Shown here: positions 2,567 to 26,538 of the stretch, in pieces
How the letters are laid out: every line of letters begins with the position of its first letter
Numbering within the stretch: the stretch's first letter is position 1
Source of the DNA: an uncultured Lachnospiraceae bacterium
Lineage (GTDB): Bacteria; Bacillota; Clostridia; Lachnospirales; Lachnospiraceae
Length of the DNA stretch: 58,038 nt
Assembly: GCA_902781895.1 (NCBI GenBank)
Contig: CACZLA010000009.1
Span: forward strand, 1 to 58,038
Direction: 5' to 3'
Translations under genes and position numbers: made by a program
Notes under the pieces: model-generated
What the model was told of the DNA's origin: nothing
The model's database searches: none
Seen by the model: the letters and a program-made list of their open reading frames with translations, nothing else

Positions 2567-5500
2567 TTAATTTGTAAGTTTATGTTTTTGTTTATGGTTT
2601 ATTATGGAATATAAAACTATAAGGAGTAGAGTTATTACAGAAATAAATATTCCTGTTATTGCGCCAGAAGGATGATAACGCATTTGAATATTATGGTCAC
2701 CTTCAGTAACAGCAACACCTATTCCTCCCAAAAATCGTTCTTTTTCTACTGGTTTATTGTCTATATATATATCCCATGATTCAGAATATGGAAGTGATAT
2801 ATATAACATACCATTCTTTTTTGAATTTAGTTTTGCATAGATGGTTTTTCCATCTTCATATAGATCAGTTAGTATATTTTCTGATAAATGATCATGTAAT
2901 TGTCTTAAGTTGTCCTCATTTAGTATGGCTATTATTGGTGTAAAATCGTCATTTTCTGTAACGCTTTCCAAAGGGTAATCAATCATTAATTCATGATTTG
3001 ATTCGTTTACATCACCAATAAAGTATACATTTTCGCCTACACTCGCATATATGCTTCCGGTTATTTCATCATTTAGTTTTATATAGACAGGAACATATTT
3101 TTGTTCTTTAGTATTTTCTTTTTTTAAGCTATATATTTCTCCGAAATAGTAGTAGTTTTTGGTATTATCAAATTCTGTTCCATTAATATAATGTTCGCAT
3201 GGGATTTTATTATATATAGGAGATGCCCCTATTGAATTAATAAAATCATTTTGATAATCTATGGAGTCTTTAGTGTCATCATCATTATAGTCTTTTATAT
3301 TAATCTCTTTTAGTTTGTTATTGTCTATTACCATTCCCATGGATACATAGTATGGATTCTCATAAACATTATAATTATTATAAGTAAATATTTTGTTATA
3401 TGTTGAATATGCAGAGTCATCATTTATATCTTCAATATGATACTTTATATTTAGCATTATATCTGCGAGTGGATTACCACCATGATAGTCCATGGAATTC
3501 AATCCCACTGGAAGATTATATGTATTTATTCGATCTATCATATCTGTGGTGTAACCTGAAGAGAAATATGAAAGAGTATGTATATCAGTTACATCGCCTA
3601 AAGTATAATAGAGAGGATGATAACCTAAATACTCTGTTAAGTGGCTAAAATTTTTCATGTCAGGGATATTTTGTGCTATTTTATTTATCTTTTCTGCTTC
3701 AGTTAACAAGTCTGAATTGCTACTTATTTGATTTGGGAAAAGAATAATAAAGTTTATAATTATATCAACTATAGTTATATATAGCATACGTTTAAGTATG
3801 GTAGAGCAATTAGTTTTCTTAACGGATGAATAGAGTATTAATACAATAAAGCTTGATAGTAGTGTTATTGATACTATAAGTGAGAATTTAGATATATCCT
3901 TATTAATAATATACAGGAAGATAAATATTATAGATGCAATAATTATTGTTCCTTGTAATGAGGATATACTATAATCTTTTATGTAATATAGTATAGATGC
4001 TAACATCGAAATAATTATAAAAACGAAAAATATAGCATGCCTGTTTGGACAAAGTGACTGAAAATGGAAACCATGAAATACATAGTTTAATAATTCATTA
4101 TTAAATGATATATAAAGTATTATAGATAATAATATTATCTTTATTCTACTATTTACTGATATTTTTTTGCATAACGCATATAAAGGTATAATAAATATAA
4201 GAATCATACCTATATAAATAGCTGAATTACTATTATCTTGGCTTACGGCTCCGAAAACGTTGCTGTTTCTATAATTTGAAAAAGCAGTGAAATAGTTTGT
4301 ATAACTCTTAAATAGAGAAGCACTTGCTGTATCTGTCTCTACATAAGCTGAGTTAATAGTAATTGATAAGAATGAAATCAGTGAAAATGCAGAAAGACCA
4401 GCAGCGGCTACAGAACAAATTCCAAATCTTATGGACTTTTTCATAAAATCTTTAAAGCCGGAAAATGTCATAGTAAAATAGAAAAGAAATATGAATTCAC
4501 ACAATAAAAATGCATGATATGGATCATAAAGCATCATTAATGTAAGGAAACATATATATAAAGCTTTTTTATTGTGATATATCATTTTTTCCAATCCCAA
4601 AATAATAAGTGGAAGATAACATGTATACTTGAAAGCCTCATAAGAAAAGAAAATTGATAAATAAGAGCTAAGTATATACATGAGACCTAAAGTGATAAGT
4701 CTGGAATCAGATTTATGAAATCTATGATATTCTCTGTGTGTTAAGTAAAATATTATTGAAAAACCTGATAGTATAAATGTCAAAAAGAATCTTATAGTAA
4801 AGCTTAATAAGTATAGCGATTTAGGTAAAATATAGTAATAAATAAATACCCAAGGAGTGGTGAGATCATTCATTACAGTTCTGTATAGGTCTTTGAATCC
4901 AGCTATATTGAAGTTGAAAAGCGAGAAAAAGTGTCCGCTTTTAATATCATTTATGTGACCTACCATTGGTGAGTATAACTCAGTTAAACCATCTCCGGTT
5001 ATTATTGGGCGGGTACCAAAAGGATAGCCTGATACTATCATCTGACTTATAATAAAGAGAACAGTAACTACTAAAAAACATGAGTAGTAAACATAGTTAT
5101 CACGTATGTGATAAGAGATGGATTGTAGATATTTATTCTCGTTATAATCTTTTTTCAATCGTTTAAGTAAAACAGTAGTTATTATTCCTAAAATGGAAAT
5201 GAGTATTCCAACAATAATAAATATAGGATTGAATCTTATTTCTATCGTATTCTCACCTTCATTTATTGGAATAAGTGAGTTGTCATCAATAAAACCTGTT
5301 TGTGTTGTTTTTTTACCATTAACATATACATCAACTGAAGAAATACATGGTATTCCCAGGGATAAATATCCTTTATGAGAACTGTTAATAGTTAATGGTT
5401 TTTCAAAATGATTATGAATATTAACTAATTCAGAAGTATTATAAATATTATCCAATATTTGGTTATTGTAAGAAGCAATCTGATAGGTGTTATTATCACT

Positions 5501-10408: not shown

Positions 10409-11404
10409 ATGTTAAACAATAGTACTATACTCATAACAGGAGGAACAGGATCATTTGGACATCATTTTGTCGACTATGTTCTTGAACATTATACCCCCCA
10501 AAAGATAATTATTTATTCAAGGGATGAGTATAAGCAGTTTATTATGGGTAATGAGTATAAAGAATATGCGGATATTCTTAGATTTTTTATTGGTGATGTG
10601 CGTGATGAGGAACGACTGCATAGAGCGATGAAGGGAGTAGACTATGTTATTCACGCAGCTGCATTAAAACAGGTCCCTGCTTGTGAATACAATCCAAATG
10701 AGGCAATAAAGACAAATGTTAACGGAGCAATGAACGTAATAAATGCCGCTCTGGATGAAGGTATTAAGAAGGTAGTTGCATTGTCGACAGATAAGGCTGT
10801 AAATCCCATAAATTTGTATGGTGGAACCAAGCTGGTTTCGGACAAGCTTTTCTGTGCTGCTAATGCATATTCTGGAAAAGATGGTACTATTTTCTCTGTT
10901 GTCAGATATGGAAATGTTGCAGGAAGTAGAGGCTCTGTAATACCTTTTTTTCAGGGGCTTATAGACAGGGGCGAAAACGAGCTTCCTATAACGGATGTGA
11001 ATATGACAAGGTTTTGGATTAGTTTGGAGGAAGGTGTAAAACTTGTTATAAAGGCGCTTAATGATTCAAAAGGCGGAGAAACATTTATCTCAAAAATTCC
11101 TTCATTTAGGATAACTGATCTGGCAAAAGCAATGAAAGATGATTGTAATATAAAAGAAGTTGGAATCCGAGAGGGAGAAAAGCTTCATGAGATAATGGTT
11201 ACCAGAGAAGATTCGATGCATACATATGAGTATGAGAAGAATTATATTATTTATCCTCATTATAATTGGTGGTCAGAGAGAGATATACTTCCTGGAGGAA
11301 AGAAAGTGGAATTTGGGTTTGAGTACAGTTCCGGAACAAATGATGTATTTCTTTCTGTAGAAGAAATCAAAGAGAAGTTGAAGACTGATCTATATAAGCA
11401 CTGA
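10409..11404 (+). CDS. pseB: UDP-GlcNAc 4,6-dehydratase (inverting), pseudaminic acid pathway
   Basis: Catalyses the first step of CMP-pseudaminic acid synthesis, dehydration and C5 inversion of UDP-GlcNAc. The 331-residue short-chain dehydrogenase has a nucleotide-binding motif at residues 11-17 (GGTGSFG). Catalytic residues line up with Helicobacter FlaA1 as T127, D128, K129, Y137 and K141 in the STDKAVNPINLYGGTK segment. HAAALKQVPACEYNP is also family-typical, as is the C-terminal FLSVEEIKEKL. The short length, without membrane domains, fits PseB rather than CapD/FlaA1-type membrane dehydratases. The pathway genes that follow (pseC, F, I, H, G) make the assignment firm. Confidence 0.92.
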   Translation: MLNNSTILITGGTGSFGHHFVDYVLEHYTPQKIIIYSRDEYKQFIMGNEYKEYADILRFFIGDVRDEERLHRAMKGVDYVIHAAALKQVPACEYNPNEAIKTNVNGAMNVINAALDEGIKKVVALSTDKAVNPINLYGGTKLVSDKLFCAANAYSGKDGTIFSVVRYGNVAGSRGSVIPFFQGLIDRGENELPITDVNMTRFWISLEEGVKLVIKALNDSKGGETFISKIPSFRITDLAKAMKDDCNIKEVGIREGEKLHEIMVTREDSMHTYEYEKNYIIYPHYNWWSERDILPGGKKVEFGFEYSSGTNDVFLSVEEIKEKLKTDLYKH

Positions 11405-11422: not shown

Positions 11423-12628
11423 ATGAGTATTATGGAAAAGCTTGCTTTAGCCGGGGGAAACCCAGTTCGTGAAAAAAAGATATATTATGGTAGACAGTAT
11501 ATAGATCAGGATGATATAAATGCAGTCACCGAAACACTGCAGAGTAACTATATAACCTGTGGTCCGAGAGTGAAAAAACTGGAAGAATCTCTTGCGGAAT
11601 ACACAGGTGCAAAGTATGCAGTGGGCGTGAGCAATGGAACTGCAGCACTTCACATAGCATGTATAGCAGCCGGGATAGGCCCCGGTGATGAGGTTATAAC
11701 AACTCCCCTTACATTTGCCGCAAGTGCCAACTGTGCTTTCTATTGTGGAGCGAAGCCGGTGTTTGCCGACATAGAGGAAGATACATATAATATCTCTCCT
11801 GAGAGTATAGAAAATTGTATAACTCCTGCAACTAAAGCAGTTGTTGCTGTGGACTATACTGGACAGTCCGTAAAGATTGATGAGATAAGAGATATATGTG
11901 ACAGGCATGGGTTGATCTTTATTGAGGATGCGGCTCATTCTATAGGAACTGCTTACAAGGGTAAAAAGATAGGATCCCTTGCTGATATGACCACATTTAG
12001 TTTTCATCCGGTAAAAAGTATAACTGCCGGTGAGGGCGGGGCGGTCATGACAAATGATAAGGACTTATATGATAAGCTGATGCTTGCCCGTACTCACGGA
12101 ATCACTCATGACAGTGATTTTATGCGTGAGAAAGAGCCGGAGGGGGCCTGGTATTATGAGCAGGTTTCTCTGGGATATAATTACAGAATAACCGATTTTC
12201 AGGCCGCATTGCTTACAAGTCAGTTAAGTAAGCTGGACAGTTTTAAGGCCAGAAGACAGGAGATAGTTTCCGGATATAACGAGGCATTTGCCGATGTACC
12301 TGAAATAATAATCCAAAGAGAGATACCTGAGTCGGATTCATGCAGACATCTCTATGTCATAAGACTGGATCCGGATAAACTCACATGTAGCAGAAGAGAA
12401 TTCTTTGATGCCATGAGTGCAGAGAATGTGCAGTGTCAGGTTCATTACATACCTGTTTACTGGTTTCCTTATTATCAGGACTTAGGATATGAGAAAGGAC
12501 TTTGTCCGATCGCAGAGAAAGTATACAGTGGTATAATGAGTATTCCATTATATCCCGGTATGGTTGATAAGGATGTTGATGATGTCATACATGCCGTTAA
12601 AAAGGTTGTAGAGAATTACAAGAGGTAA
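11423..12628 (+). CDS. pseC: UDP-4-amino-4,6-dideoxy-L-AltNAc transaminase
   Basis: PLP-dependent DegT/DnrJ/EryC1 aminotransferase that aminates the PseB product at C4. The 401-residue protein opens with GGNPVREKKIYYGRQYI, has SNGTAALHIA for phosphate binding, EDAAHSIG around the PLP-contacting Asp, and the Schiff-base lysine K198 in SFHPVKSITAGEGG. The C-terminal YNYRITDFQAALLTSQL block is characteristic. The start is an ATG after an AGGAATAGG SD, with another in-frame ATG nine bases later. Its stop is two bases before pseF, indicating tight coupling. Confidence 0.92.
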   Translation: MSIMEKLALAGGNPVREKKIYYGRQYIDQDDINAVTETLQSNYITCGPRVKKLEESLAEYTGAKYAVGVSNGTAALHIACIAAGIGPGDEVITTPLTFAASANCAFYCGAKPVFADIEEDTYNISPESIENCITPATKAVVAVDYTGQSVKIDEIRDICDRHGLIFIEDAAHSIGTAYKGKKIGSLADMTTFSFHPVKSITAGEGGAVMTNDKDLYDKLMLARTHGITHDSDFMREKEPEGAWYYEQVSLGYNYRITDFQAALLTSQLSKLDSFKARRQEIVSGYNEAFADVPEIIIQREIPESDSCRHLYVIRLDPDKLTCSRREFFDAMSAENVQCQVHYIPVYWFPYYQDLGYEKGLCPIAEKVYSGIMSIPLYPGMVDKDVDDVIHAVKKVVENYKR

Positions 12629-12630
12629 AT

Positions 12631-13320
12631 ATGTCATCTGTGGCAATTATTACAGCAAGAGGTGGAAGCAAAAGAATCCCCAAAAAGAACATAAAGGATT
12701 TCTGCGGTAAACCTATCATAGCATACAGTATCGAGGCAGCACTGGAAAGTGGTGCCTTTGATAGTGTTATGGTTTCTACTGATGACGAGGAGATAGTAGA
12801 GGTTGCAAGAAGCTTTGGTGCTGATGTACCTTTTTTAAGATCTAAGGAAGCAAGCGATGATCATGCCACCTCAGCCGATGCCATAGCAGATGTATTAAAG
12901 GCATACGGCGAAAAGGGGATAACATATGATGTATTCTGTTGTCTATATCCCACAGCACCTTTTGTGACTGCAGAGAGACTGAGAGATGCGAATACTATTT
13001 TTACTGCTTCGGATGCTACGGGGCTGGTATCGATAGTAAAGTATGATTTCCCACCCCAGAGAAGTTTCGTTATAAGGGATGGGCTGGTAAAATACCAATA
13101 CCCTGAGTTCAGAGATTCAAGAAGTCAGGATCTGGAAACCATATATCATGACTGCGGACAGTTTTATTTTTGCAGAACAAAAAGCTTTCTGAATGAAAAG
13201 ACGCTGGTAACCTCGAAGGCTTTGCCTTATGAAATACCGGAAGAAGAGGTTCAGGATATAGATACACTTTCGGATTGGAAGATAGCTGAGATAAAGTATC
13301 AGAGAATGATATCTGAATAA
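12631..13320 (+). CDS. pseF: Pseudaminic acid cytidylyltransferase
   Basis: Activates pseudaminic acid with CTP to CMP-Pse, the last pathway step. The 229-residue product has the CMP-sialate synthetase signature IITARGGSKRIPKKNIKDFCGKP at residues 5-27, and YPTAPFVTAERL downstream. The region VQDIDTLSDWKIAEIKY near the C-terminus is typical. It could formally act on another nonulosonate, but neighbouring pseB, C, H, G and I favour Pse. It lies two bases behind pseC. Confidence 0.9.
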   Translation: MSSVAIITARGGSKRIPKKNIKDFCGKPIIAYSIEAALESGAFDSVMVSTDDEEIVEVARSFGADVPFLRSKEASDDHATSADAIADVLKAYGEKGITYDVFCCLYPTAPFVTAERLRDANTIFTASDATGLVSIVKYDFPPQRSFVIRDGLVKYQYPEFRDSRSQDLETIYHDCGQFYFCRTKSFLNEKTLVTSKALPYEIPEEEVQDIDTLSDWKIAEIKYQRMISE

Positions 13321-13341: not shown

Positions 13342-14376
13342 TTGAGCAGATTATTTGAAAAGATTGAAAACGGGAAAGTTTATATAATCGCAGAAATGAG
13401 TGCCAACCACGGAGGAAGTCTGGAGGGCGCGCTGGAGATAGTTCGACAAGTTGCGAAGACCGGAGTGGACTGTCTGAAAATCCAGACTTATACTGCAGAC
13501 AGTATAACCATCGATTCGGATAAGTCTGATTTTATAATAAACGGTGGCTTATGGGATGGTTATAAGCTTTATGATCTGTATACAGAAGCTTCGACTCCGT
13601 ATGAATGGCAGGCTGAGATAAAAGCTGCGTGTGAAAGAGAGGGACTGGATTTTCTTTCCACACCTTTTGATCCTTCAGCAGTGGATTTTTTGGAATCCAT
13701 AGGCTGTGATGCCTATAAGATAGCCAGCTTCGAACTTACTGACGTTCCATTGATTGAGTATGCGGCGTCAAAAAATAAGCCAATGATCATATCCTGTGGA
13801 ATGGGTTCTCCGGAAGAGATTCAGGATGCACTTGATGCCTGCAAGAGGGCGGGAAATAAAAATGTTGTGCTGTTGAAGTGTTGTAGTGAATATCCTGCAA
13901 ATTGGAAGGATATGCATCTCGCTAACATTCCGGATATGAAGGAACGTTTTAATGTCCCTATTGGATTATCAGATCACAGCGCAGGAAGTCTGGGAGCTGT
14001 TGTAGGTGTTTCACTGGGAGCGTTGGTCATAGAGAAGCACGTCAAACTGGAAGGTATAGAAAGTGCTGACAGTGAATTCAGCATGTGCATGGATGATTTT
14101 TCCAAGATGGTTAAGGATGTAAGAAATGCAACTATCATCAAGGGAGAAACATTTTACGGTCCTAATCCGGGGGAGACAGAGAATTATAAGTTAAGAAGAA
14201 GTCTCTACGTGGTAATGGATGTAAAGACCGGAGAGACATTCACGACAGATAATGTAAGAAGTATCAGACCGGGGGCAGGACTTGCACCGAAGCATTTATC
14301 GGATATCATTGGAAAAAAAGCTGCTTTCGATATAGAAAAAGGTACTGCATTTACTGAGGAAATGATATATAGATGA
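13342..14376 (+). CDS. pseI: Pseudaminic acid synthase
   Basis: NeuB-family enzyme condensing 6-deoxy-AltdiNAc with phosphoenolpyruvate. The 344-residue product has the TIM-barrel motifs IIAEMSANHGGSLEGALE, KIQTYTADSIT, LSTPFDPSAVDFLE, KIASFELTD and GLSDHSAG. A C-terminal SAF/antifreeze-like domain follows (about 285-344, RSLYVVMDVKTGE to the end). The MSANHGG variant and KIQTYTADS are PseI-like. Translation starts at TTG 13342 behind AGAAGGA. The stop overlaps the next gene by ATGA. Confidence 0.92.
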   Translation: MSRLFEKIENGKVYIIAEMSANHGGSLEGALEIVRQVAKTGVDCLKIQTYTADSITIDSDKSDFIINGGLWDGYKLYDLYTEASTPYEWQAEIKAACEREGLDFLSTPFDPSAVDFLESIGCDAYKIASFELTDVPLIEYAASKNKPMIISCGMGSPEEIQDALDACKRAGNKNVVLLKCCSEYPANWKDMHLANIPDMKERFNVPIGLSDHSAGSLGAVVGVSLGALVIEKHVKLEGIESADSEFSMCMDDFSKMVKDVRNATIIKGETFYGPNPGETENYKLRRSLYVVMDVKTGETFTTDNVRSIRPGAGLAPKHLSDIIGKKAAFDIEKGTAFTEEMIYR

Positions 14377-14861
14377 AAAAGGAACAAATAAAAACAGACA
14401 GACTGATATTAAGAGATATACAGCCGGAGGATGCCTTATTTATAGTAAAGCTAAGGAGTGATCCTGAAATCTATAAGTATTTTAAGAATCCTGTAAAGAT
14501 TGACATAGAGAGTCATAATCGCTGGTATAGAGAGAACTATATATATGATGATGACAGAGTAGATATGCTGGCCAGGGAAGTTACAACAGGTGAAAGAACC
14601 GGGGTATTTGGGATAAGAAGGCTTGGTAGTGGTGCAGCGGAACTAAGCTATATTCTTTTACCTGATATGATGGGAAAAGGATATGCGACAGAGGCAATAA
14701 ATGCTATGATGGACTATTTTTCAGAAAAATGGGATATAAATTGTTTTATCGCTGAAATACATAAGGATAATCAGTCATCTATTCATTTTGTTGAAAAATT
14801 AGGTTTTAAAATGGCTTCGTCGAAAGGCGTATTTAATAACTATGATTTATATAAGAATTGA
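14373..14861 (+). CDS. pseH: GNAT acetyltransferase, UDP-4-amino-4,6-dideoxy-AltNAc N-acetyltransferase
   Basis: Acetyl-CoA-dependent N-acetyltransferase for the PseC product, assigned mainly from context. The 162-residue GNAT fold starts KTDRLILRDIQPEDALFIVKLRSDPEI. It has the acetyl-CoA loop PDMMGKGYAT, followed by EIHKDNQSSIHFVEKLGFK. The ATGA overlap with pseI shows coupling. RimJ-like GNATs look alike, so sequence alone would leave the substrate open; the otherwise complete Pse pathway makes PseH the best choice. No gene lies in the 74 AT-rich bases after it. Confidence 0.82.
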   Translation: MKKEQIKTDRLILRDIQPEDALFIVKLRSDPEIYKYFKNPVKIDIESHNRWYRENYIYDDDRVDMLAREVTTGERTGVFGIRRLGSGAAELSYILLPDMMGKGYATEAINAMMDYFSEKWDINCFIAEIHKDNQSSIHFVEKLGFKMASSKGVFNNYDLYKN

Positions 14862-14935: not shown

Positions 14936-17542
14936 ATGTCCATTTCAGAAGTTTTGTACTTTATTATTATTAAACCAATAGAGATAATATTTGAAATAAT
15001 ATTTTATATATCTAATAGTATTATAAATAATCCCGGGGGATCTATTATAATACTAAGCATTGTAGTTAATCTTTTAGTTTTACCTCTGTATAACAGAAGT
15101 GAAGAAATGCAAAAAACAATTAATAATAAACGATTAAGTTTTGAAAAATGGGAAAAGCATATCAAAAAAAGCTTTCGTGGAGATGAAAGGTTTTTTATGT
15201 TGCAAACTTTATACAAACAGAATGATTATAAACCATATAGTAGTATTTTTACAGCATTTCCACTTTTACTACAGATTCCCTTTTTTATAGCGGCTTATCA
15301 TTTTCTGACTTCAATAAATCTTTTAGATGGAGTTTCTTTTTGTGGGTTGAAGGATTTAGGGGAAGCTGATGGCCTTTTAACTATAGGAAAGATAAGTATA
15401 AATGTTTTACCATTTATTATGACAGGTATCAATATAGTTTCAAGCTATATATATACAAGAAAAATGTTTTGCAAAGAAAGCTTGAAGCTTTATCTTATGT
15501 CATTAGTTTTCTTAGTATTGCTTTATTCTTCTCCAGCAGGATTGGTTTTTTATTGGACGCTAAATAATTTATTCTCTCTAATTAAAAATATAACAAATAG
15601 AGTTTTAGAGAAACATAAAAAGGAAAAAGAAATAGCTAAAGAAATAATAATGGATAATAAAAATACATATGTGTATTTGTTGTCTGGAGTGTCGTTGTCG
15701 TTGCTTGTAGGTATGTATATCCCATCTTTTGTAATAAAAGGGGCGGCACTTGAATTTATAAGCATAAGTATACTTCGAAATCCAGTAGTTTATGTTATAA
15801 GTAGTTTCTGTATTGCATTTGGCTTCTTTGTTATATGGAGTGGTATTATATATATTATCAATAATAACAAGGTGAAAAGAATAGTTTCAGAAGTGTTATT
15901 TATTCTGGCGGTAGTATTTGCGTTAAACTTTATAACAATTGATTATAATCTAAAAGTATCCAAGTTATTAACATTATCGGAAGAAACAGATATTGTTTAT
16001 GGGAAATTTCAGATTATTAGAAATATTATTATAGTGTTAGCTGCTGTGGTTTTATGTCATTTTGTTTATCGTAAGAATAAAACTATTATTTGTTGTATTT
16101 TAATAGTTGCAATCATGGCGTTAGGGGTGCTGAGTTTTAATAATATAAGGAATATTAATGTACAGTTTCATGATTGTAAGAGTTATTTAGAAAAGTATGA
16201 TGAAGGAATTCCTGAAATTCATTTAAGTAAAAATGGTTATAATGTTGTTGTTATTATGATGGATAAAATGGATAGCTATTTTATTCCTGGTATAATAACA
16301 GAAAATCCTGAGTTGTTAGAAAAATTTAGTGGATTTACTTATTATCCTAATTGTGTAAGTTATGGTGAATGTACAAATGTTGGTGCACCAGCATTATATG
16401 GCGGATATGAATATTCACCTGAAGAAATGAATAAAAGAGATACAGAATTATTGGTGGATAAACAAAACGAAGCGTTAAAAGTTATGCCGGTTTTGTTTGA
16501 TCAAAATGATTATGAAGTTACTGTATGTGATCCAACATTGGCGGGGTATAGATGGATACCAGATCTTAGTATTTATAGTGATTATCCAGAAATAAAAACA
16601 TATATTTCAAAAGGTAAATTAAATTCTGCTATATTAGACGAAAGTATGGAAGAGATAAAGAAAAGAAATCTATTTTTTTACTCATTATGTCGTGTGACCC
16701 CGGCAATCGGACAGAGAATCATTTACCATGGTGGAGATTACTATTCACTGTCATGTGAAGAATGTGTTCAAAAAGCTGATGGAGCATCGAAGTGTAAGGG
16801 TCAATATGGACCTTTCTTAGAAACTTATAATGTTTTGGATAGCATGAGTGAAATAACAAAAATAGATGATTCTGATAAAAATACATTTATGATGATGAGC
16901 AATGATTCTACACATGAACCATGCGTACTTAGTGAACCAGATTATCTACCATCAAAAATAGTTGATAATAGTGAATTTGATAATAATAATCAAACTAGAA
17001 TAGATATATTTGGTAATGAAATAGAGATTAATGATACAAAAAAATTGACACATTACCAGGTGAATATGTCATCTATGAATGTTATTGGTAAATGGTTGGA
17101 TTATCTGAAGGAAAATGGGGTATATGATAATACAAAAATAATAATAGTATCTGATCATTCAGCCGTAATGGGATGGTATGAAGATTTTGTTTGTAGAGTA
17201 AAGTTTGTGAACGATACTTTAGGAGCGGACTTATTACAGTTTCAAAGTACTCTTCTTGTAAAAGATTTTAATGCTGATGTTTTTACTGTTGACAGACAGT
17301 TTATGTCAAATGCAGATGTTCCTATCATAGCTACGGATGGATTGATCGACAATGCAAAGAATCCATTTACTGGTAATGTACTAAGTGAAATGAATAAAAA
17401 AGATGAACCATTAAACCTTATTTTTGCTTTGAATTATAATACAGAAACTAATAATGGATATAGATATTTACCTGAATTATGGTTTTCTGTACATGATGAT
17501 ATATTTGTGCCTGAAAATTGGAGTTCGTTAGGTTATCACTAA
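14936..17542 (+). CDS. YidC/Oxa1-like domain fused to LtaS-like sulfatase/phosphotransferase
   Basis: An 868-residue product with an unusual architecture. Residues 1-235 look like YidC/Oxa1: VVNLLVLPLYNRSEEMQK, a helical hairpin, IFTAFPLLLQIPFFIAAY, and the signature SSPAGLVFYWTLNNLFSLI. The groove arginine of the VRLxxxPL motif reads N45. Residues 245-405 add about five membrane helices starting GMYIPSFVIKGAALEF. Residues 430-868 resemble the alkaline-phosphatase/LtaS superfamily: VVIMMDKMDSY (D443 as metal ligand), SYGECTNVGAPALYGG (T480 a candidate nucleophile), SNDSTHEP and VSDHS (D740-H741). It probably transfers a phospho-head group or acts on a surface polymer; the substrate is unknown. 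It is AT-rich relative to the pse genes and splits pseH from pseG. SD is AAAAGGAG. Confidence 0.8.
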   Translation: MSISEVLYFIIIKPIEIIFEIIFYISNSIINNPGGSIIILSIVVNLLVLPLYNRSEEMQKTINNKRLSFEKWEKHIKKSFRGDERFFMLQTLYKQNDYKPYSSIFTAFPLLLQIPFFIAAYHFLTSINLLDGVSFCGLKDLGEADGLLTIGKISINVLPFIMTGINIVSSYIYTRKMFCKESLKLYLMSLVFLVLLYSSPAGLVFYWTLNNLFSLIKNITNRVLEKHKKEKEIAKEIIMDNKNTYVYLLSGVSLSLLVGMYIPSFVIKGAALEFISISILRNPVVYVISSFCIAFGFFVIWSGIIYIINNNKVKRIVSEVLFILAVVFALNFITIDYNLKVSKLLTLSEETDIVYGKFQIIRNIIIVLAAVVLCHFVYRKNKTIICCILIVAIMALGVLSFNNIRNINVQFHDCKSYLEKYDEGIPEIHLSKNGYNVVVIMMDKMDSYFIPGIITENPELLEKFSGFTYYPNCVSYGECTNVGAPALYGGYEYSPEEMNKRDTELLVDKQNEALKVMPVLFDQNDYEVTVCDPTLAGYRWIPDLSIYSDYPEIKTYISKGKLNSAILDESMEEIKKRNLFFYSLCRVTPAIGQRIIYHGGDYYSLSCEECVQKADGASKCKGQYGPFLETYNVLDSMSEITKIDDSDKNTFMMMSNDSTHEPCVLSEPDYLPSKIVDNSEFDNNNQTRIDIFGNEIEINDTKKLTHYQVNMSSMNVIGKWLDYLKENGVYDNTKIIIVSDHSAVMGWYEDFVCRVKFVNDTLGADLLQFQSTLLVKDFNADVFTVDRQFMSNADVPIIATDGLIDNAKNPFTGNVLSEMNKKDEPLNLIFALNYNTETNNGYRYLPELWFSVHDDIFVPENWSSLGYH

Positions 17543-17600: not shown

Positions 17601-18620
17601 ATGTTATTTATAAGAGTTGATGCTAACAAACATATAGCGACTGGGCATATGATGAGATGTATGGCTATTGCATCGCAGGCTTGTAAGTCAGGTATTAAAA
17701 CCATTTTTATAACAGCGGATGGGTCTGGAGATGATCTATTGGATAAAGCTGGGTATGAACATATTACACTTAACTCCGCATGGAATGATATGGAGAGTGA
17801 AACGGAAAAGCTACTGGCATTGATAAAAGAAAAGGATATAAAAAAGCTGATCATTGATTCATATCAAGTGACTGAGATATATCTAAAAAGAATAAAAGAT
17901 TATACAGAAGTTATATATATAGATGATTTAAATATGTTCAGATATCCTGTTAATTGTCTTATCTGCTATGCTCCGTATTACAATAAGTTTGGATATAAAG
18001 ATGTATATAAAGATAGCGGGACAAGGCTTCTTCTTGGTACAAAGTATTTGCCTCTTAGGGAAAATTTTCTTATGCTACCAACAAAAAAGATAAAGGAAAA
18101 ACCGGAAGAACTTCTTATTCTTTCAGGTGGAGGAGATCAAAGTGAATTAATTATAAAGATAATAAGAAATGTAGATTTTTCGTATTTCAGTGTGGTAAAT
18201 ATAATTTGTGGTAATTATTGTACAAATATAGATAAGATTAGTACAGAAGTTTGTAATGTCCTTAAGCGAGTAAAAGGGTGTGAGATAAATATTCTTTCAA
18301 ATGTTAGAAATATTGAAAAATATATGATGAGTGCTGACATAGCAATTTCTGCAGGTGGTACAACCCTTTATGAATTATCAGCTTGCGGAACTCCAACTAT
18401 TTCTTATATAGCAGCTGAGAATCAAAGAGATAATGTTTCTTACTTTGATAAAGAATCTGTTATTAAATCAGCTGGAGCTATAAATGATAAAGAGTTTATA
18501 AATAATCTTAATAGTTTATTAGAACAGATTAAAGATTATAACATTAGAGCGTTACAATCATCAGCAATGAAAAAACTGGTTGATGGAAAGGGCTGTCAGA
18601 GAATAATAGAGGAGATATGA
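17601..18620 (+). CDS. pseG: UDP-2,4-diacetamido-2,4,6-trideoxy-L-altropyranose hydrolase
   Basis: Removes UDP from the diacetylated intermediate, giving the substrate of PseI. The 339-residue GT-B-like protein starts FIRVDANKHIATGHMMRC, where H16 corresponds to the catalytic His of PseG. The C-terminal half holds LSGGGDQSE and SAGGTTLYELSACGTPTI, the UDP-binding region. It completes the six-gene pathway, although it is separated from pseBCFIH by the YidC-sulfatase gene. Its stop overlaps the next start by ATGA. Confidence 0.9.
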   Translation: MLFIRVDANKHIATGHMMRCMAIASQACKSGIKTIFITADGSGDDLLDKAGYEHITLNSAWNDMESETEKLLALIKEKDIKKLIIDSYQVTEIYLKRIKDYTEVIYIDDLNMFRYPVNCLICYAPYYNKFGYKDVYKDSGTRLLLGTKYLPLRENFLMLPTKKIKEKPEELLILSGGGDQSELIIKIIRNVDFSYFSVVNIICGNYCTNIDKISTEVCNVLKRVKGCEINILSNVRNIEKYMMSADIAISAGGTTLYELSACGTPTISYIAAENQRDNVSYFDKESVIKSAGAINDKEFINNLNSLLEQIKDYNIRALQSSAMKKLVDGKGCQRIIEEI

Positions 18621-19510
18621 AAGTATTAATTATTGGAAAAAATGGTTTTATTGGACGAAATTTGTATGAATATTATTCTATGTCAGGTAGTGATGTCACT
18701 GCCTTAGCAAGTGCTGAGCTAAATCTGTTGCATGAGGCTGAGGTTAGAAGTTATTTGAAGAAAACGTACTTTGATGTTGTGATAGATGCTGCGATATATA
18801 ATCCGAGAGTTGGTTTAAACAAGGATTCTTCAAAAGAGTTTGAGTACGATGTCAGGATGTTCCATAATCTGGCTAAGTACAACAAATACTATGGAAAACT
18901 CATTTATTTTGGCTCGGGCGCAGAGTACAATAAGTTATATCCGATATGTTCTGTTAAAGAAGCTGATCTGAAGAATGATATTCCTGATAATGCTTATGGA
19001 ATGGCTAAGTATATCATTGGACAGGAGATAGAAGCTGGAATTTATGACTCTGATAATATATACAATCTTAGAGTATTTGGTCTTTACGGTAAATATGAAA
19101 ACTGGAAGTCTACTTTTATCTCTGGAGCCTGTTGTAAAGTTATAAAGGATATGCCTATTACAATTAGAAGAAATGTTATCTTTGATTATTTATACATCGA
19201 TGATTTTTGTAGGATGATTGATAGATTTATTTGTATGGATAAGCATGGTTTTCACACATATAATATTACCTCGGGTAAAAGAATATCAATTCTTCAGATA
19301 GCTGAATCTGTAATGAGAATAAGTGGTAAAAACACAGGAATAATAGTTAAGAATAGCGGATACGCAAATGAGTATACTGCAAACAGTGACAGACTTTTTA
19401 AAGAAATTGGATGGAATGAAACTGAGCCAATGGAGCTTTCAGTAAAGAAACTCTATGATTATTATGTTCAAAACAAGGATATGATAGATAAGGAATTATT
19501 GGATGAATAG
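18617..19510 (+). CDS. NAD(P)-dependent sugar epimerase/reductase
   Basis: Short-chain dehydrogenase of the extended NAD-dependent epimerase/dehydratase family, 297 residues. The nucleotide motif GKNGFIGRN lies at residues 8-16 and the active-site YGMAKY follows an FGSGAEYN segment. The body resembles RmlD/GDP-fucose synthase-like proteins, but the substrate cannot be named. It overlaps pseG by four bases and the next gene by eight bases, so all three are co-translated. It may supply or modify a sugar for the surface glycan. Confidence 0.75.
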   Translation: MKVLIIGKNGFIGRNLYEYYSMSGSDVTALASAELNLLHEAEVRSYLKKTYFDVVIDAAIYNPRVGLNKDSSKEFEYDVRMFHNLAKYNKYYGKLIYFGSGAEYNKLYPICSVKEADLKNDIPDNAYGMAKYIIGQEIEAGIYDSDNIYNLRVFGLYGKYENWKSTFISGACCKVIKDMPITIRRNVIFDYLYIDDFCRMIDRFICMDKHGFHTYNITSGKRISILQIAESVMRISGKNTGIIVKNSGYANEYTANSDRLFKEIGWNETEPMELSVKKLYDYYVQNKDMIDKELLDE

Positions 19511-22500
19511 CATTAGGGATAAGTCTACCAACTTTATAAAGAATAATTACACTTATCTCGTCGTAATACTTGTTATGACGATAATAATGATTATTGTCAT
19601 GTTCATCGACAGAGTTCAGCCTTTTGGTGACAACTTTCCGTTACTCGGAAACGGTTTTATTCAGGATTATACCCAGTTCGTTAATGCTGCAAACCGTGTG
19701 AAGAGCGGGGGATTTTTTGAGTTTCTGGAGTACGGTGTCGGAATGACATTTGATAACTATGGAATGAAGACATATTCTATGACATTCCTGCTTCTGAGAC
19801 CATGGCTTTATATCATCTATTTCTTTGTTCCGGAGTCACTGTTTCTGCCGGTGTTCTTTATGTACTATTACCTGAATTATTTGCTGGCAGGACCTATATT
19901 TATCTATTATCTGACTCACAGAAGAAATGCAAAAGTAATGGACAGGAAGGATCCGAGACTTATAGCCTTCGGTCTTTGTTACGGTCTTTCTGCGTTTACC
20001 ATCAGCTTCTTCATTTATTACTTCAGATACATGATCTACATGCCCATCATTTTCCTGGGAATTGAGAAGCTTGTCTATGATAAAAAATCAAAGCTTTACA
20101 TATTCACACTTGCTTACTTTATGGCGACGGAGGCGTACTATGCCTTTATCCTGTGTATATTTGCGGCAATGTATTTCCTGATCCAGGAGCATAAGGATAT
20201 AAAGACATTTTTTATGAACGGCGTCAGGTTTGCCGTGTCATCTATGTGTGCGGCAGGTCTTTCCGCTGCATTTCTGATACCTTACTTTATCAGAACCAGA
20301 TACTCGCCATATGGTGAATTCGACGGTGAGGCTCCAAGCCTTATGAAATGGTTCGGTTCCATACTGAGCCCCCTCTCTGAATACAGAGTGGCAAAGGACG
20401 GAATGACAACCTCAAGTATAGAATACAGGTCGAACATTTACTGCGGCCTTCTTATACTGCTTCTTGTTCCCGTATTTATGAGACTGAAGGATATCAAGCT
20501 CAGCCGCAGGATCAAGACCCTTATTTTCCTTGCAGTCATATATATAGGCTTTGATAATCAGCTGTTTAATTATATATTCCATGGCTTCCATTATCAGTGG
20601 CAGGTTCCTAACCGTTTTTCGTCCTTCTTCATTTTTATCATCCTTATAATGGCATATGATGTTGTGCTCAGGTTTGAAGAAGTGGGAAAGAAGAGCATGC
20701 TGGTGGGTGTACTGGTTTCGGCAGCTGTGCTGCTTACTTCGTATGTTTTGGGAATAGACAATCCCGAGCTTTCCGACAGTGCAGTGAAATACTATATCTG
20801 CAGCTTTATCTTCCTTGGAATATATCTCATCATCTTTGCAGGCCTTTACCTGAAGATAGATAAAAAGAAATGTATAAGTATACTTATGACCGTTGTAAGT
20901 ATCGAGGTGGTTTTCAGCTCGGTCTTTACTCTGAAATCATCCATGTCCTTCGACGGCAGTAAGGATGAATTTGCTTATATAGATAATATGAAGCTTCTGG
21001 CTGAAAGAAATCCGGACATGCTGATTCCTTACTGCATTACCGAACGTCCGGGGGAAACCTTTGACCAGAATATTTCCTATACAACGGGAACACATTCCTT
21101 GTCATTCTATACCTCCAGCAGCTTCAGTCAGCATTTTGATCTTTATTACAGATGGGGTGTACTTTTCTCGAAGAATATCACCTATTACACTACCGGTTCG
21201 CCCCTGGCGGATATGATGCTTCACGTGAGGTATCACACCATAAACAATGAAAAATATGAGACTGTGTCACCATATGTCCCAATAGATATGGAGGGAAATG
21301 TAATCTTATATCAGAATCCATATTACCTTCCTCTGGGAATAGTTATAGACAGTCATGTGCTGGATGAATGGAACAAAAAGTCGGAGTCTTATTCCAATTA
21401 TTCATCTGTTTTTGAACTTGATAATGAATTTGCTCATGCCTTTGGAGTAGATGACATTTATGCCGAACTTACTGCAGAAAGGATCAACTCCGAAGAAGAA
21501 CTTCAGGCAGGTACCGGTAACAGCCTCTACTATATGGTGGAAGAGGATGCAGAGGGAAATGCACTCTATACCTTCTATGTTGATACTGATATATCGGGAG
21601 CACTCTATATGCAGATAGCTCAGGCATCTGAATATATAGGTACTGCAGTAGAAGGAGAAACCGGTGTATTCTACTTCTATGTTCCGAGAACTATCAATAT
21701 TGAGTCTCAGGATGATATAAAGCTTGCGGTCTTCAGAGAGGACAGCTTTGGACAGCTTTACAATATTCTGGCATCAAATACGGCTTATAATCAGTCCTTT
21801 GATTCGGATAGTATCAGCATGGACGTTCAGATGCCGGATAACAGCATGCTTTATCTTGCCATGCCTTATCTGCCCGGATTTACGGCATATGTGGATGGAC
21901 AGGAAGCGAAGATAACAAGCTATATGGATGGTGCCGCATTATATCTTAATGCAGGAGCTCATCATATAGAATTAAAATATACTCCCGAAGGTGTAGTGAC
22001 GGGCTGGCAGATAAGTATCATAACTGCGATGCTTATGCTGGTAGCTTATATGCTTATGATTAAAAAGGGAGTTGTTCAGATAGAGAAAAAGCCGGATGTA
22101 AAGAATGTTCTCATATTTACCGTTCTTACCCTGGCGCTTCTTCCTATGCCTATAGTATTTGACGGATCAGGGAACTATGCATTTGGTAATGGCTGGCTGC
22201 TGATCCTTATAGCCCTTATTATGGGAATAAGAAGGAGAAGGGAGATATTTGGCAGAATTCAGAAGGGCAGAGTGCAGGTGGCTGCAGTACTGCTGACGGT
22301 ACTGTTCCTTATCATGCTTCCGTTTACGGATCTGATCAGAGGAACGGCTCTTATGACTGACAGTCTGCTTTCTTCAGTATGGAAGTGGGTGCTCTTTGTT
22401 CCTTCTCTTATCTTCAGTGTATGGTATATAATAAATGCCGTTCTTTCCTGCAGATTTGATAAGGTGAAGGAGTATAGTCCGAAGCTGCTGAAGAACAGAA

Positions 22501-23957
22501 AAGTATGTCTTATAATAATTGCCGTTTTATCATGCATTTTCCTGTTTGCCGCAATGCCGGGTATCTGGATTCAGGATGATGTGGCGAGAGTCATGCTTCA
22601 GGTCAGATCAAATGCACCAAGCAACTGGGATACATTTGGTTATTACTTATATGTATATATCACTACTATAGGAGGACGGTTCCAGTTTGGAGCAAATATA
22701 GTCCAGACTATAATATTTATTCTGATAAACAGCTATGTGCTGAGGGCTTTGGAAAAGCATTCGGTAAAAGCCATGTCGGTATATACCATTCTCATGTCTG
22801 TTGCGGTAACGCCGATGCTTTATCTCAGTGTTATGTACAAGGATACTGTATTTGCCATGGGAGTTCTTGCGCTGACAGCAGGAGTCTTCAGTGTGATCAG
22901 AACAGGTAAGGTAGGTAAAGGGGATATTGCAGTCCTCGGTTTTGCTTCTCTGTTTGTTACAGTTTGCAGACATGGTGGTTATATTGCATCCATATCAGGA
23001 CTCGTAATTCTCGGAATATATCTGCTTAAGAAGAATAAAGCTGAGATAAAGAGATTTATCATAGCTCCATTAATGCATATCATGAGCTATGTATTGGTTT
23101 ACATAATTCTATTCAATGCCATGGATGTGGAACCAGTTCCTGCATATGTTAAGTATGGAACACCGCTTTCCATCATCAGCAGTGCTGCTTACGAAGGAGT
23201 GGAGTTTGATCCTAAGGACGAGGCAAGACTTGAAGAGGTAATGCCGGTCAGTGACTGGGGACTCTGCTACGATAAGTACTGGGCAGATGGAATCTCAAGA
23301 CCATGGGGTTTCCTTGGTTCTGATAATCTGTTCAAGATGAATGATCTGATGGAAGAGGATGGATACGGATCATTTATTATCAAACTGAATGCTAAACTTG
23401 TCTTTAAGCATCCTGTCATATTCTTCAGGGCATTCCTTGGCATGGCAAATGATATCTGGGAGGTTTCAAGACCTGCGGATATGGTTGAGTATTATATGCC
23501 GGTTTCAGAGCTGGCAGGTCTACCTGAAGACAGTGAGATAGATTACAGTGGTCTGTATAACGTAACAAAGCCCGTTACGGAGTTTTATAATGATAATACT
23601 TGGCTGCATACGGCTTTCCTTAGAGGCGGTCTCAGTCTTTTCGTATGTATACTACTTATGACAGCACTGTTTATTAATAAGAAAAAGAAGTATATCCTTC
23701 CGATGATACCGGTGCTTCTTTATTCGGCAACACTTATGCTGGCCATACCTGCTCCGGATGCCAGATATATACTTCCTATTATGGAAGCAGTTATATTTAT
23801 GGTGGCATATTTTACAGGTTTTAAATATAGGACGGTAGAGGAGAGTATGAGTGAGAAAGACAGCGTGGAAGCAGATGTTGAGAAAGACGGTGTGGAAGCA
23901 AAAGAAGAGACAGATAGTCAGGATATGACTGATGGAGAAATGAACATTCAGGAGTAA
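19503..23957 (+). CDS. YfhO-type unit fused to a second polytopic domain (DUF6020-like)
   Basis: A 1484-residue membrane protein. Residues 1-850 form a YfhO-like unit: PFGDNFPLLGNGFIQDY loop, YHWQVPNRF-like HGFHYQWQVPNRFS, a soluble part and closing motif AHHIELKYTPEGVVTG. The loop acid position that reads GD in other copies is GN here (N50). Residues 880-1440 form another multi-helix region: PGIWIQDDVARVMLQ, YKDTVFAMGVL and PDARYILPIMEA, resembling DUF6020-type putative GT-C proteins. The tail after 1445 is acidic and probably cytoplasmic. The start overlaps the epimerase gene. GC is clearly higher than in the double-YfhO gene. Role inferred: extracytoplasmic glycan assembly. Confidence 0.72.
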   Translation: MNSIRDKSTNFIKNNYTYLVVILVMTIIMIIVMFIDRVQPFGDNFPLLGNGFIQDYTQFVNAANRVKSGGFFEFLEYGVGMTFDNYGMKTYSMTFLLLRPWLYIIYFFVPESLFLPVFFMYYYLNYLLAGPIFIYYLTHRRNAKVMDRKDPRLIAFGLCYGLSAFTISFFIYYFRYMIYMPIIFLGIEKLVYDKKSKLYIFTLAYFMATEAYYAFILCIFAAMYFLIQEHKDIKTFFMNGVRFAVSSMCAAGLSAAFLIPYFIRTRYSPYGEFDGEAPSLMKWFGSILSPLSEYRVAKDGMTTSSIEYRSNIYCGLLILLLVPVFMRLKDIKLSRRIKTLIFLAVIYIGFDNQLFNYIFHGFHYQWQVPNRFSSFFIFIILIMAYDVVLRFEEVGKKSMLVGVLVSAAVLLTSYVLGIDNPELSDSAVKYYICSFIFLGIYLIIFAGLYLKIDKKKCISILMTVVSIEVVFSSVFTLKSSMSFDGSKDEFAYIDNMKLLAERNPDMLIPYCITERPGETFDQNISYTTGTHSLSFYTSSSFSQHFDLYYRWGVLFSKNITYYTTGSPLADMMLHVRYHTINNEKYETVSPYVPIDMEGNVILYQNPYYLPLGIVIDSHVLDEWNKKSESYSNYSSVFELDNEFAHAFGVDDIYAELTAERINSEEELQAGTGNSLYYMVEEDAEGNALYTFYVDTDISGALYMQIAQASEYIGTAVEGETGVFYFYVPRTINIESQDDIKLAVFREDSFGQLYNILASNTAYNQSFDSDSISMDVQMPDNSMLYLAMPYLPGFTAYVDGQEAKITSYMDGAALYLNAGAHHIELKYTPEGVVTGWQISIITAMLMLVAYMLMIKKGVVQIEKKPDVKNVLIFTVLTLALLPMPIVFDGSGNYAFGNGWLLILIALIMGIRRRREIFGRIQKGRVQVAAVLLTVLFLIMLPFTDLIRGTALMTDSLLSSVWKWVLFVPSLIFSVWYIINAVLSCRFDKVKEYSPKLLKNRKVCLIIIAVLSCIFLFAAMPGIWIQDDVARVMLQVRSNAPSNWDTFGYYLYVYITTIGGRFQFGANIVQTIIFILINSYVLRALEKHSVKAMSVYTILMSVAVTPMLYLSVMYKDTVFAMGVLALTAGVFSVIRTGKVGKGDIAVLGFASLFVTVCRHGGYIASISGLVILGIYLLKKNKAEIKRFIIAPLMHIMSYVLVYIILFNAMDVEPVPAYVKYGTPLSIISSAAYEGVEFDPKDEARLEEVMPVSDWGLCYDKYWADGISRPWGFLGSDNLFKMNDLMEEDGYGSFIIKLNAKLVFKHPVIFFRAFLGMANDIWEVSRPADMVEYYMPVSELAGLPEDSEIDYSGLYNVTKPVTEFYNDNTWLHTAFLRGGLSLFVCILLMTALFINKKKKYILPMIPVLLYSATLMLAIPAPDARYILPIMEAVIFMVAYFTGFKYRTVEESMSEKDSVEADVEKDGVEAKEETDSQDMTDGEMNIQE

Positions 23958-23961
23958 AGCA

Positions 23962-26538
23962 TTGAATCTAGCAAAAAAGCATTTAAGTATAGTTACATTT
24001 TTGATAATTACATTATTTCTGCTTATTACATTTATCATCTTAGGAATAAAACCATTTGGTGATAAATATATCCTTTTAGGTGACAGCTATGACCAGTATA
24101 TACCGATTTTAGGTCTTTTCAAAGACAAGACAGCAGGGATAGGAAGTATGAGCTCTGTCCATGATCTTTTTTACACATGGAAGATAGGACTGGGGGCAAA
24201 TTATCTCCTTCTGTTTTTCTATTATCTGGCCAGTCCATTTAATATTCTGCTTTTATTTGTTTCAAAGAGCGGACTTATCAGTGCATTTACATTTATTGTT
24301 ATTCTCAAGGTTGCACTGGCCGGGGCATCCTTTTCATATTATCTGAGAAAGAAGATGGCTACCGATATCAGATATCTGCTGATAACAGCCATTTCAGTCT
24401 GCTATGCTCTCAGTGGATTTATCTGCGGATACTTCTGGAATATCATGTGGCTTGATTCCCTCATCATGTTCCCTATCGTAATGCTGGGGATGGACAGACT
24501 TCTCGAAGGAAAGAACCCGGTTCTTTATATTATTTCTTTATGTATAACCATATATCTGAATTTCTATATGGCATTCATGATATGTATATTCCTGGGAATC
24601 TATTTCCTGTTTTGGAAATATGATTCAGTTAGATCATTTCTTAAAACAGGTGTCAGATTTGCTCTGGCCTCACTTCTTGCGGCGGGTATGACAGCAGTTT
24701 CTTTATGCGTGATCTATTTCGGAATAGGAGAGACATCCGGAGCTTCTTATGAGACCCCGGGATTCGGTTTTTTCGGAAATATACTGCATATTTTTAAGCG
24801 TGCATTCTTTCTCTCGAAGCCTGTGGTTACCGAGAGATATAACGGTGTGGCAAATATCTACTGCGGATGTGCGTTTGTACTTCTTGTACCGGTGTATTTC
24901 TTATTCAGCAAAAAAGATTTAAATGAAAAGCTGAGGAAGGCAGGAATGTTTCTTATCCTGGTGATAAGCATGAACGAGAGTGTTCTTAATTATATATGGC
25001 ACGGCTTCCATGAGCAGTTTCTTATTCCCAACAGATTCTCATTTATTTATATTTTCCTGATACTCTGCATAGGATATGAGGCATTGTCGGGAGTTGAACA
25101 GTTGTCTGCTGAACAACAAAAAAAGAGAATGTGTCTGATAGCTGCTGCTTTTATAGCAGTTATATCCCCTGTAGTGTGCTATGCATTTGTCGAGTTTGAC
25201 TGTATAGCGGGAGTGGAAATCGTTATTGTTACAAATATGCTGCTGATCATGATTTATGCAGTACTGCTGGGACTTGCTTACTTCGGTTCGGTAAAGAAAA
25301 CGAAAGTTATAGCGGCATTTTCCGTATTGATGCTTCTGGAACTTTTTACTAATGCTTTTCTTTCATTTGAATCTCAGAACTTAAAAAGAGATGAGCGTGC
25401 AATGGAAGCTATGATTGATTATTATGAGAATTCAGATAGTGAAGAGGACCTGCCATTTTACAGGGAAGATGTTTTAGATCCTGAAATTACTAATGAGAAT
25501 ACTCTGATTGGGATGAACGGAGCCAGTACATTTTGTTCGACAATTAGTGGAAACAGTCTTTATACTATGATTGATTTGGGATATAAGTATATGAGTAACC
25601 AATATATTTTCAAGGGCTTTATTCCACTGACAAATGCTCTTATTTCCCTAAAGAATTATTACTATTTTGATGGAGAGAACGTTAGTAAGATTGAGAATGA
25701 AGCCTTTCTTCCTCTGGGATATGTTGCAGATAAAAGGCTGCTGGATTATTCATACAGTGAAGAGATAAATCCACTTTATACATTGAACAGTATACTAAAG
25801 CTTTCCACTGATACCGAAGAGGATGTAATAACCGATATCAATGATGAGGTTGGCTGCTTCTTTGACGGATGTACCATAAAAAAAGATGCGGAGGGAAATA
25901 ATTCGATCTTTATCGAAGAGGTTACACAGGAGATGGCTGTGGTAGATCTTTGTTTCTCTGCAACACAGGAGGGCGTATATTACATCTATATAGCCGCAAC
26001 AGGTGGAAACGGAGTCCGGGTTTCCATAGATGGTGAAGAATATGCATATGGCGATATAATAAACGGATGGCTTGAACTACCGAGATTAGAATCGGGAGAA
26101 AATGTAGAAGCAATATTCTTTACGGAAGAGCCTGAAGTATCACTGTTATGGTATTTTGGAAGATATAATGATGAGGTTGCAGAAAATGCCCTGAACGTTT
26201 TATCAGAAGAACATCTTGAGATTTCTTCATTTTCCGAAGGAGAGATAAAAGGAACTCTGGATATGAGGGATGAGGGTGTGATGGTGCTGTCTATACCATT
26301 TGATGATGGCTGGTCAGTGTATGATGGTGATAAGAAGGTTTCTGCCGTTAAGGTTATGCGAGGCTTTACGGGAGTACCTCTCGGGGCTGGGCACCACGAT
26401 ATACGGATAGTTTATACTCCGAAAGGAATTATCATCGGTGGATTAGTAATGATACTCTCCTGGATAATATTCATAGTATATCTAGTTATCCGTCGTAGAT
26501 TTAAAGAGAAGAATCGGAGAATAAAAGAATTATCATGA
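23962..26538 (+). CDS. YfhO family membrane protein
   Basis: A single-unit YfhO protein of 858 residues, the usual family length. The first extracytoplasmic loop has the GDSYDQYIP motif with D41, the proposed catalytic acid of GT-C enzymes. The central HGFHEQFLIPNRFSF block and the C-terminal MVLSIPFDDGWSVYDGDKKV and HHDIRIVYTPKG match the other copies. About 12-14 helices are seen, then a basic tail. Translation starts at TTG 23962 after GGAG with eight bases; four bases separate it from the previous stop. Likely role is sugar transfer from a lipid carrier to a surface polymer, as for Bacillus and Listeria YfhO. Confidence 0.85.
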   Translation: MNLAKKHLSIVTFLIITLFLLITFIILGIKPFGDKYILLGDSYDQYIPILGLFKDKTAGIGSMSSVHDLFYTWKIGLGANYLLLFFYYLASPFNILLLFVSKSGLISAFTFIVILKVALAGASFSYYLRKKMATDIRYLLITAISVCYALSGFICGYFWNIMWLDSLIMFPIVMLGMDRLLEGKNPVLYIISLCITIYLNFYMAFMICIFLGIYFLFWKYDSVRSFLKTGVRFALASLLAAGMTAVSLCVIYFGIGETSGASYETPGFGFFGNILHIFKRAFFLSKPVVTERYNGVANIYCGCAFVLLVPVYFLFSKKDLNEKLRKAGMFLILVISMNESVLNYIWHGFHEQFLIPNRFSFIYIFLILCIGYEALSGVEQLSAEQQKKRMCLIAAAFIAVISPVVCYAFVEFDCIAGVEIVIVTNMLLIMIYAVLLGLAYFGSVKKTKVIAAFSVLMLLELFTNAFLSFESQNLKRDERAMEAMIDYYENSDSEEDLPFYREDVLDPEITNENTLIGMNGASTFCSTISGNSLYTMIDLGYKYMSNQYIFKGFIPLTNALISLKNYYYFDGENVSKIENEAFLPLGYVADKRLLDYSYSEEINPLYTLNSILKLSTDTEEDVITDINDEVGCFFDGCTIKKDAEGNNSIFIEEVTQEMAVVDLCFSATQEGVYYIYIAATGGNGVRVSIDGEEYAYGDIINGWLELPRLESGENVEAIFFTEEPEVSLLWYFGRYNDEVAENALNVLSEEHLEISSFSEGEIKGTLDMRDEGVMVLSIPFDDGWSVYDGDKKVSAVKVMRGFTGVPLGAGHHDIRIVYTPKGIIIGGLVMILSWIIFIVYLVIRRRFKEKNRRIKELS

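Follow-up and report, generated by a model that had tools for sequence, protein, structure and literature searches.

Related systems

The enzymes closest to the outer part of the protein described here are those of the LtaS/LtaP, EptA/MCR and PbgA group (PF00884), which have five membrane helices and an outer domain of the alkaline-phosphatase fold carrying a threonine and a D/DH motif. Our protein shares this anatomy, and differs in that a complete YidC stands in front of it and that a TagF-like partner usually accompanies it. With the YidC/Oxa1/Alb3 insertases (PF02096) it shares the fold and the core motifs, whereas its YidC is joined to an enzyme and shows other residues at several columns.

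At the level of pathways, the three-component transmembrane glycosylation of the CsbB/GtcA/YfhO type, as outlined in PMC8035078, follows a scheme of loading inside, flipping and transfer outside. A similar scheme would apply here, but with phospho-headgroup chemistry and with YidC in the place of the flippase. The LicD/PptA phosphocholine pathway (sections of PMC10434233) and the CMP-phosphonate pathways (sections of PMC6697681) have choline kinase, NTP transferase and PEP mutase in common with our loci; in contrast to the former, TagF and the LtaS-like enzyme would replace LicD. Lastly, in the case of the C. difficile type A flagellin glycan, the proposed role of the TagF-like CD0244 is the transfer of phosphothreonine, a headgroup that is not a polyol, from a CDP donor (PMC10714395). 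This enzyme differs in that its proposed target is flagellin GlcNAc, and the sections of PMC10714395 dealing with it mention neither a YidC nor an LtaS-like partner.

The window, i.e. the whole stretch of 58,038 nucleotides that was analysed, encodes a fusion of YidC, a five-helix membrane domain and an LtaS-like enzyme. To our knowledge, little is known of how polymers on the surface of gut Clostridia acquire zwitterionic headgroups. Together with TagF, its usual partner on the cytosolic side, the fusion probably carries phosphocholine-like groups across the membrane of many gut and rumen bacteria and attaches them to the cell surface. If the YidC domain acts as a translocase for lipid headgroups, the membrane-crossing system would be a new one, with phosphocholine, aminoethylphosphonate and related groups loaded on a lipid inside and attached outside, and the lipid scrambling reported for insertases in vitro would gain a dedicated biological use.

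Locus and domain architecture

The features of the window were the following (coordinates, strand, description and basis):

10409-11404, +, pseB (TIGR03589 above cut-off)
11423-12628, +, pseC (TIGR03588 above cut-off)
12631-13320, +, pseF (TIGR03584 above cut-off)
13342-14376, +, pseI (TIGR03586 above cut-off)
14373..14861, +, GNAT acetyltransferase, PseH-like by position (TIGR03585 far below cut-off)
14936..17542, +, fusion of YidC, five-helix domain and LtaS-like (alkaline-phosphatase-superfamily) domain, 868 aa (ORF, Pfam, AlphaFold2)
14936..15640, +, YidC/Oxa1 domain, residues 1-235 (PF02096; Foldseek to 3wo6)
15068..15070, +, N45 codon, position of the YidC groove arginine (PDB alignment)
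15656..16198, +, five-helix membrane domain, residues 241-421 (model helices; loop charges)
16217..17539, +, LtaS-like phosphotransferase domain, residues 428-868, predicted outside the membrane (PF00884; Foldseek)
16373..16375, +, T480, predicted nucleophile (T in 110/110 fusions)
17153..17158, +, D740-H741, predicted metal ligands with D443; H660 also invariant (110/110)
17601..18620, +, pseG (TIGR03590, 166.9 bits, cut-off 153.55)

The fusion ORF contains no internal stops and lies inside a pseudaminic-acid operon with the order pseB, pseC, pseF, pseI, GNAT gene, fusion and pseG; an adjoining TagF gene is absent. With pse genes around the fusion and YfhO genes on both sides, the Pse and YfhO setting described in the first-pass annotation is confirmed. 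Three YfhO genes were seen in the window (2567-7543 on the minus strand, 19503-23957 and 23962-26538), and in one of them, of 1658 residues, the best match does not begin until residue 823, while one matches DUF6020 as well. The window starts with transposase and helper genes of the IS21 type (148-2444).

That annotation had also proposed a YidC signature in the N-terminal part and a sulfatase-type C-terminal part, and Pfam bears out both. PF02096 matches residues 36-219 (E 2.3e-23; 83.4 bits, cut-off 35), the SSPAGLVFYWTLNNLF motif is present in the translation, and the narrower YidC model TIGR03592 scores 82.4 bits, just under its cut-off of 84.3. PF00884 matches residues 436-744 (E 3.1e-9; 37 bits, cut-off 25). 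The five-helix membrane domain between the two parts was absent from the earlier description.

The AlphaFold2 model of the fusion (79 sequences) reached a mean pLDDT of 89.6 and a pTM of 0.87. In the model, the YidC helices are followed by five further long helices (about 241-421) and by the outer domain from about residue 428. Foldseek matched the N-terminal part to B. halodurans and E. coli YidC (3wo6 of B. halodurans with a TM-score by target length of 0.73 and an rmsd of 3.6), and the predicted fold of five helices and a cytosolic hairpin is that of YidC. The C-terminal part matched the group of 3lxq, YejM/PbgA, MCR-1, LtaP and LtaS, as well as sulfatases and phosphonate hydrolases. The LtaS-type traits are found together, namely the PF00884 match, a threonine at the nucleophile position, the D and DH metal sites and, as predicted by AlphaFold2, five membrane helices ahead of the outer domain. 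As modelled, the protein is a YidC plus an LtaS-like enzyme. LtaS has a threonine as nucleophile, and true sulfatases have a cysteine or serine for formylglycine; with T480 at this place in 110/110 fusions, a true sulfatase is unlikely.

The N-terminus of YidC lies outside the membrane. Counting the model helices from there, the C-terminal domain would be located outside the cell, as in LtaS. The loops expected to be cytosolic carry 11 Lys/Arg (59-101) and 7 Lys/Arg (222-242), which is consistent with this orientation.

Conserved residues and comparison with housekeeping YidC

Out of 120 homologue hits, 110 distinct full-length fusions were kept to describe conservation and partial genes were dropped. 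These 110 copies rule out an assembly error or a chance joining, and isolates are among the fusion records, e.g. Schwartzia succinivorans DSM 10502 and Butyrivibrio sp. MB2005. In the enzyme part, the metal motifs named in the first-pass annotation (D443, T480, D740 and H741) are present in the window fusion and invariant in 110/110 fusions, as is H660. In the YidC part, S41, P50, P115, D145, M162, N166, Y197, P200, Y206, W207, N210 and N211 are all invariant (110/110), and N45 and K217 are each kept in 109/110.

For comparison, housekeeping YidCs of same-family genomes were collected (L145-L174, L001, L036 and L031), giving 33 rows or 32 distinct proteins, as L036 and L159 are one gene. An rnpA-like ORF lies beside 32/33 of these rows and a jag-like one beside 33/33. 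Column 166 is N in the fusions and Q in 32/32 housekeeping YidCs, and column 217 is K in the fusions and Q in 26/32. By these residue patterns, the fused YidC domain is a distinct and constrained form.

PDB alignment to E. coli YidC confirms that N45 occupies the column of the groove arginine, numbered R366 in PMC8920935, and thus the basic groove residue is absent from the window fusion. This had been taken as a mark of lost insertase activity, a reading that does not stand. PMC8920935, in its account of the groove, describes the basic residue as strictly conserved, and also the E. coli arginine as dispensable, depending on a neighbouring residue. Among the 32 housekeeping YidCs of the same family, column 45 is Y in 12, K in 10, N in 5 and R in 5, so that Y or N occupies the groove position in 17/32 and a basic residue is not family-defining in these bacteria. 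What stands of the earlier proposal is that the YidC domain has been re-used in an envelope pathway, for which a lipid-linked substrate fits best; the N45 argument falls away.

A YidC tree was calculated from 28 of the 110 fusions (type A), 19 proteins in which YidC is joined to TagF instead (type B, described below) and the 33 housekeeping rows. The 28 type-A rows form one clade apart from the 33 housekeeping rows, from which they differ at several columns. The type A and the type B domains each form one side of a branch (100/100), the two not grouping together. A single clade of both types was disfavoured by the AU test (p 0.026), which is a weak test here because long branches are involved.

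Distribution of the fusion

A search of 150 family genomes with P0001 (E <= 1e-5) matched 11, of which seven (G000, G004, G022, G036, G049, G052 and G109) carry fusions, the one in G052 being divergent. The other four matches were YidC without enzyme (G025, G097), a fragment (G081) and enzyme without YidC (G135). More widely, 9/392 genomes of an order draw (E <= 1e-25) and 3/398 of a phylum draw (E <= 1e-20) matched, own genome included in both cases. A scan of named genomes gave at least 592 candidate stretches, and tblastn (E <= 1e-3) placed a relative in at least 536 of them. From these, the 80 best were read, corresponding to 78 loci, and the NCBI labels of these 78 best loci were Clostridia (73), Negativicutes, Erysipelotrichia and Actinomycetes (one each) and unplaced (two). 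No match to the fusion was found in the plasmid collection, and no description of it among the open-licence PMC papers listed.

Altogether 85 fusion loci were counted, leaving out L083 (same contig as L027), L095 and L030; the latter two fail the HMM rule for fusions, although the alignment shows L030 to be a divergent one. There is some dependence among the 85 loci, since L098 and L099 overlap on one contig and L064 and L070 come from one genome. A NeuB/PseI-like gene occurs within the stretch examined in 2/85 loci. A Pse locus is therefore not the typical home of the fusion, and a Pse-specific function was rejected as its general role.

A TagF-like companion

The TagF-like gene is the usual companion of the fusion. 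Within seven genes of the fusion, the largest neighbour cluster was present in 67/87 loci and the next largest in 29/87, and thus the TagF cluster is the only one found in over half. PF04464 matched 58/58 scanned of its 71 members. By a separate rule, a TagF-like gene was detected in 65/85 fusion loci, and 66/69 TagF-like genes were immediate neighbours of the fusion. A model of the partner from L063 (pLDDT 88.7) had TagF 3l7k as its best Foldseek match among solved structures. In the remaining 20/85 type-A loci TagF was not found, many of these stretches being short and the TagF of L023 having been missed by the gene caller.

The association also holds across genomes. The TagF subfamily (E <= 1e-60) was found in 7/150 family genomes, the same seven as the fusion (Fisher p 3.4e-12, with relatedness of the genomes disregarded and a TagF profile built from neighbours of fusions). 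In G004, both TagF loci (L185, L186) are without a fusion in the stretch, its fusions lying on other contigs. In genomes newly met via the TagF gene, the fusion was present in 6/6 new loci and choline-type genes in 4/6. A seventh locus, L247, is L068 again, with fusion and choline-type genes present, and was left out of the six; the TagF gene of L246 was missed by the gene caller and counted from the YidC-TagF query search.

Reciprocal fusions of YidC and TagF

In G022, a protein of 634 aa (L034:6791-8695) joins a YidC domain (E 8e-31) to a TagF domain (E 3e-11), and a separate LtaS-like gene directly precedes it. Searching with this type of protein, 37/397 family genomes matched, some of them merely through a TagF or a YidC by itself. 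Twenty-one type-B stretches were examined and 20 counted, from 18 genomes; L235 was dropped, as its YidC-TagF gene was not called. A separate LtaS-like gene was present in 11/20 type-B loci, the seed locus L034 included, and in none of the other nine; 13 such enzymes were aligned and keep the D, T, H and DH residues. Headgroup-type genes occur in 14/20 loci (PEP mutase in seven, choline kinase in four). Column 45 is K in 19/19 YidC-TagF proteins.

In what looks like one pathway, YidC is thus attached to the inner enzyme in some cases and to the outer one in others. An element that transports a substrate between TagF and the LtaS-like enzyme, or hands it over, would be expected to show this pattern. 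With YidC on either enzyme, lipid movement by Oxa1-family grooves in living cells becomes testable, as does the question of which enzymes put phosphocholine and phosphonates on the surface of these bacteria. In the family of the window, the YidC-TagF proteins comprise L034:6791-8695, L220-L234, L236-L238 and L183. In some of them, the YidC part contains an extra stretch of about 70 residues.

Headgroup-type genes and the own genome

Headgroup-type genes were identified in 29/85 type-A loci, or 22/85 if NTP transferases alone are excluded; NTP transferases near fusions may have other roles. The neighbour representatives included choline kinase, NTP transferase, EamA, a TPP enzyme and a PEP mutase joined to a cytidylyltransferase-like domain. 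Relatives of these genes lead to CDP-choline (passages of PMC10434233) and to CMP-aminoethylphosphonate (passages of PMC6697681). Among 87 further flanking proteins scanned (225 candidates), LicD was found in two and class-V aminotransferase in six. Near the fusions, L027:6269-8071 and L084:6907-8736 (by Pfam) and L220:5214-7076 (by seed search) each combine an NTP transferase with a class I/II aminotransferase.

The genome of the window contains three PF02096 genes. Besides the window fusion, there is a housekeeping yidC on contig C2, whose neighbouring ORFs were taken to be rnpA and jag, and another fusion on C70. The latter is about 49% identical, its 3' end runs off the contig, and it adjoins a TagF gene and a protein matching PF01943 weakly, below cut-off. 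On C36, LicD, a BCCT transporter, an NTP transferase and an NTP-transferase/choline-kinase gene lie together. At least 110 choline-binding-repeat matches (150/231 candidates scored) are spread over many contigs, and none were found in 14 control genomes. Given these repeats and the choline-type genes, a phosphocholine or choline-like ligand on the surface of this bacterium is plausible. As LicD lies with choline-type genes on C36, it may place phosphocholine independently of the fusion. For PEP mutase, the genome gave a borderline match only (31.4 bits).

Proposed mechanism and alternative explanations

On the observed domain anatomy, conservation, partner linkage and reciprocal fusion, we give about even chances to a system that transfers phospho- or phosphono-headgroups across the membrane and has the fusion as its outer half. 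In a first step, the membrane-anchored TagF-like enzyme would load a headgroup (phosphocholine, aminoethylphosphonate or similar, from a CDP/CMP-activated form) onto a membrane lipid on the cytosolic side. Secondly, the polar groove of YidC would let the lipid headgroup cross to the outer leaflet, or would hand it over; inner enzyme, outer enzyme and YidC are linked in two architectures. E. coli YidC scrambles lipids in liposomes, according to the preprint PMC10491306. Thirdly, the outer LtaS-like domain, whose anatomy is observed, would accept the group on T480, at a metal site formed by D443, D740 and H741, and would finally pass it on to a glycan or protein of the cell surface. As for the window copy, it may act on a glycan that contains pseudaminic acid, using a donor made elsewhere. 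More tentatively, and at somewhat less than even chances, an Oxa1-superfamily protein could have been recruited, probably twice (with the LtaS-like enzyme and with TagF), as a lipid-headgroup translocase and not as an insertase.

Three other explanations were weighed. The best of them, which we nevertheless regard as unlikely, is an LtaS-type glycerol-phosphate transferase or polymerase with phosphatidylglycerol as donor, where YidC equilibrates the phospholipid and TagF makes a separate wall polymer. LtaS and LtaP are among the closest solved folds, the five-helix and D/T/DH anatomy is LtaS-like, LtaS uses phosphatidylglycerol (as given in PMC8035078), and in 56/85 type-A loci a headgroup-type gene was not found. 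However, this would leave unexplained both the YidC-TagF fusion of the second family and the choline and phosphonate genes beside part of both families. Rather improbable is that the YidC domain is still a protein insertase, inserting a client for the outer domain or helping the large enzyme to assemble. Against the kept fold and cytosolic hairpin, and a loss of the groove arginine that is compatible with insertase activity, stand the fact that no conserved client gene stood out among the 87 loci, where only the TagF cluster exceeds half, the swap to TagF, which better fits a small-molecule path, and the fusion-specific N166 and K217, which suggest a changed domain. Slightly less probable again is a mere scaffold bringing TagF and the LtaS-like enzyme to one membrane spot, which would show fusion to either partner, but none of the twelve YidC positions named above varies among the 110 proteins and several are polar residues of model helices, which seems more than a scaffold needs.

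The copy number of the fusion varies between the loci. Two or more fusion genes are found in 22/85 type-A loci, and L085, L104, L138 and L090 show arrays of three or more per stretch. Perhaps such arrays serve several acceptors or headgroups. Additionally, an 88-aa ORF carrying the start of the fused YidC domain (L035:7447-7713) is probably a decayed gene.
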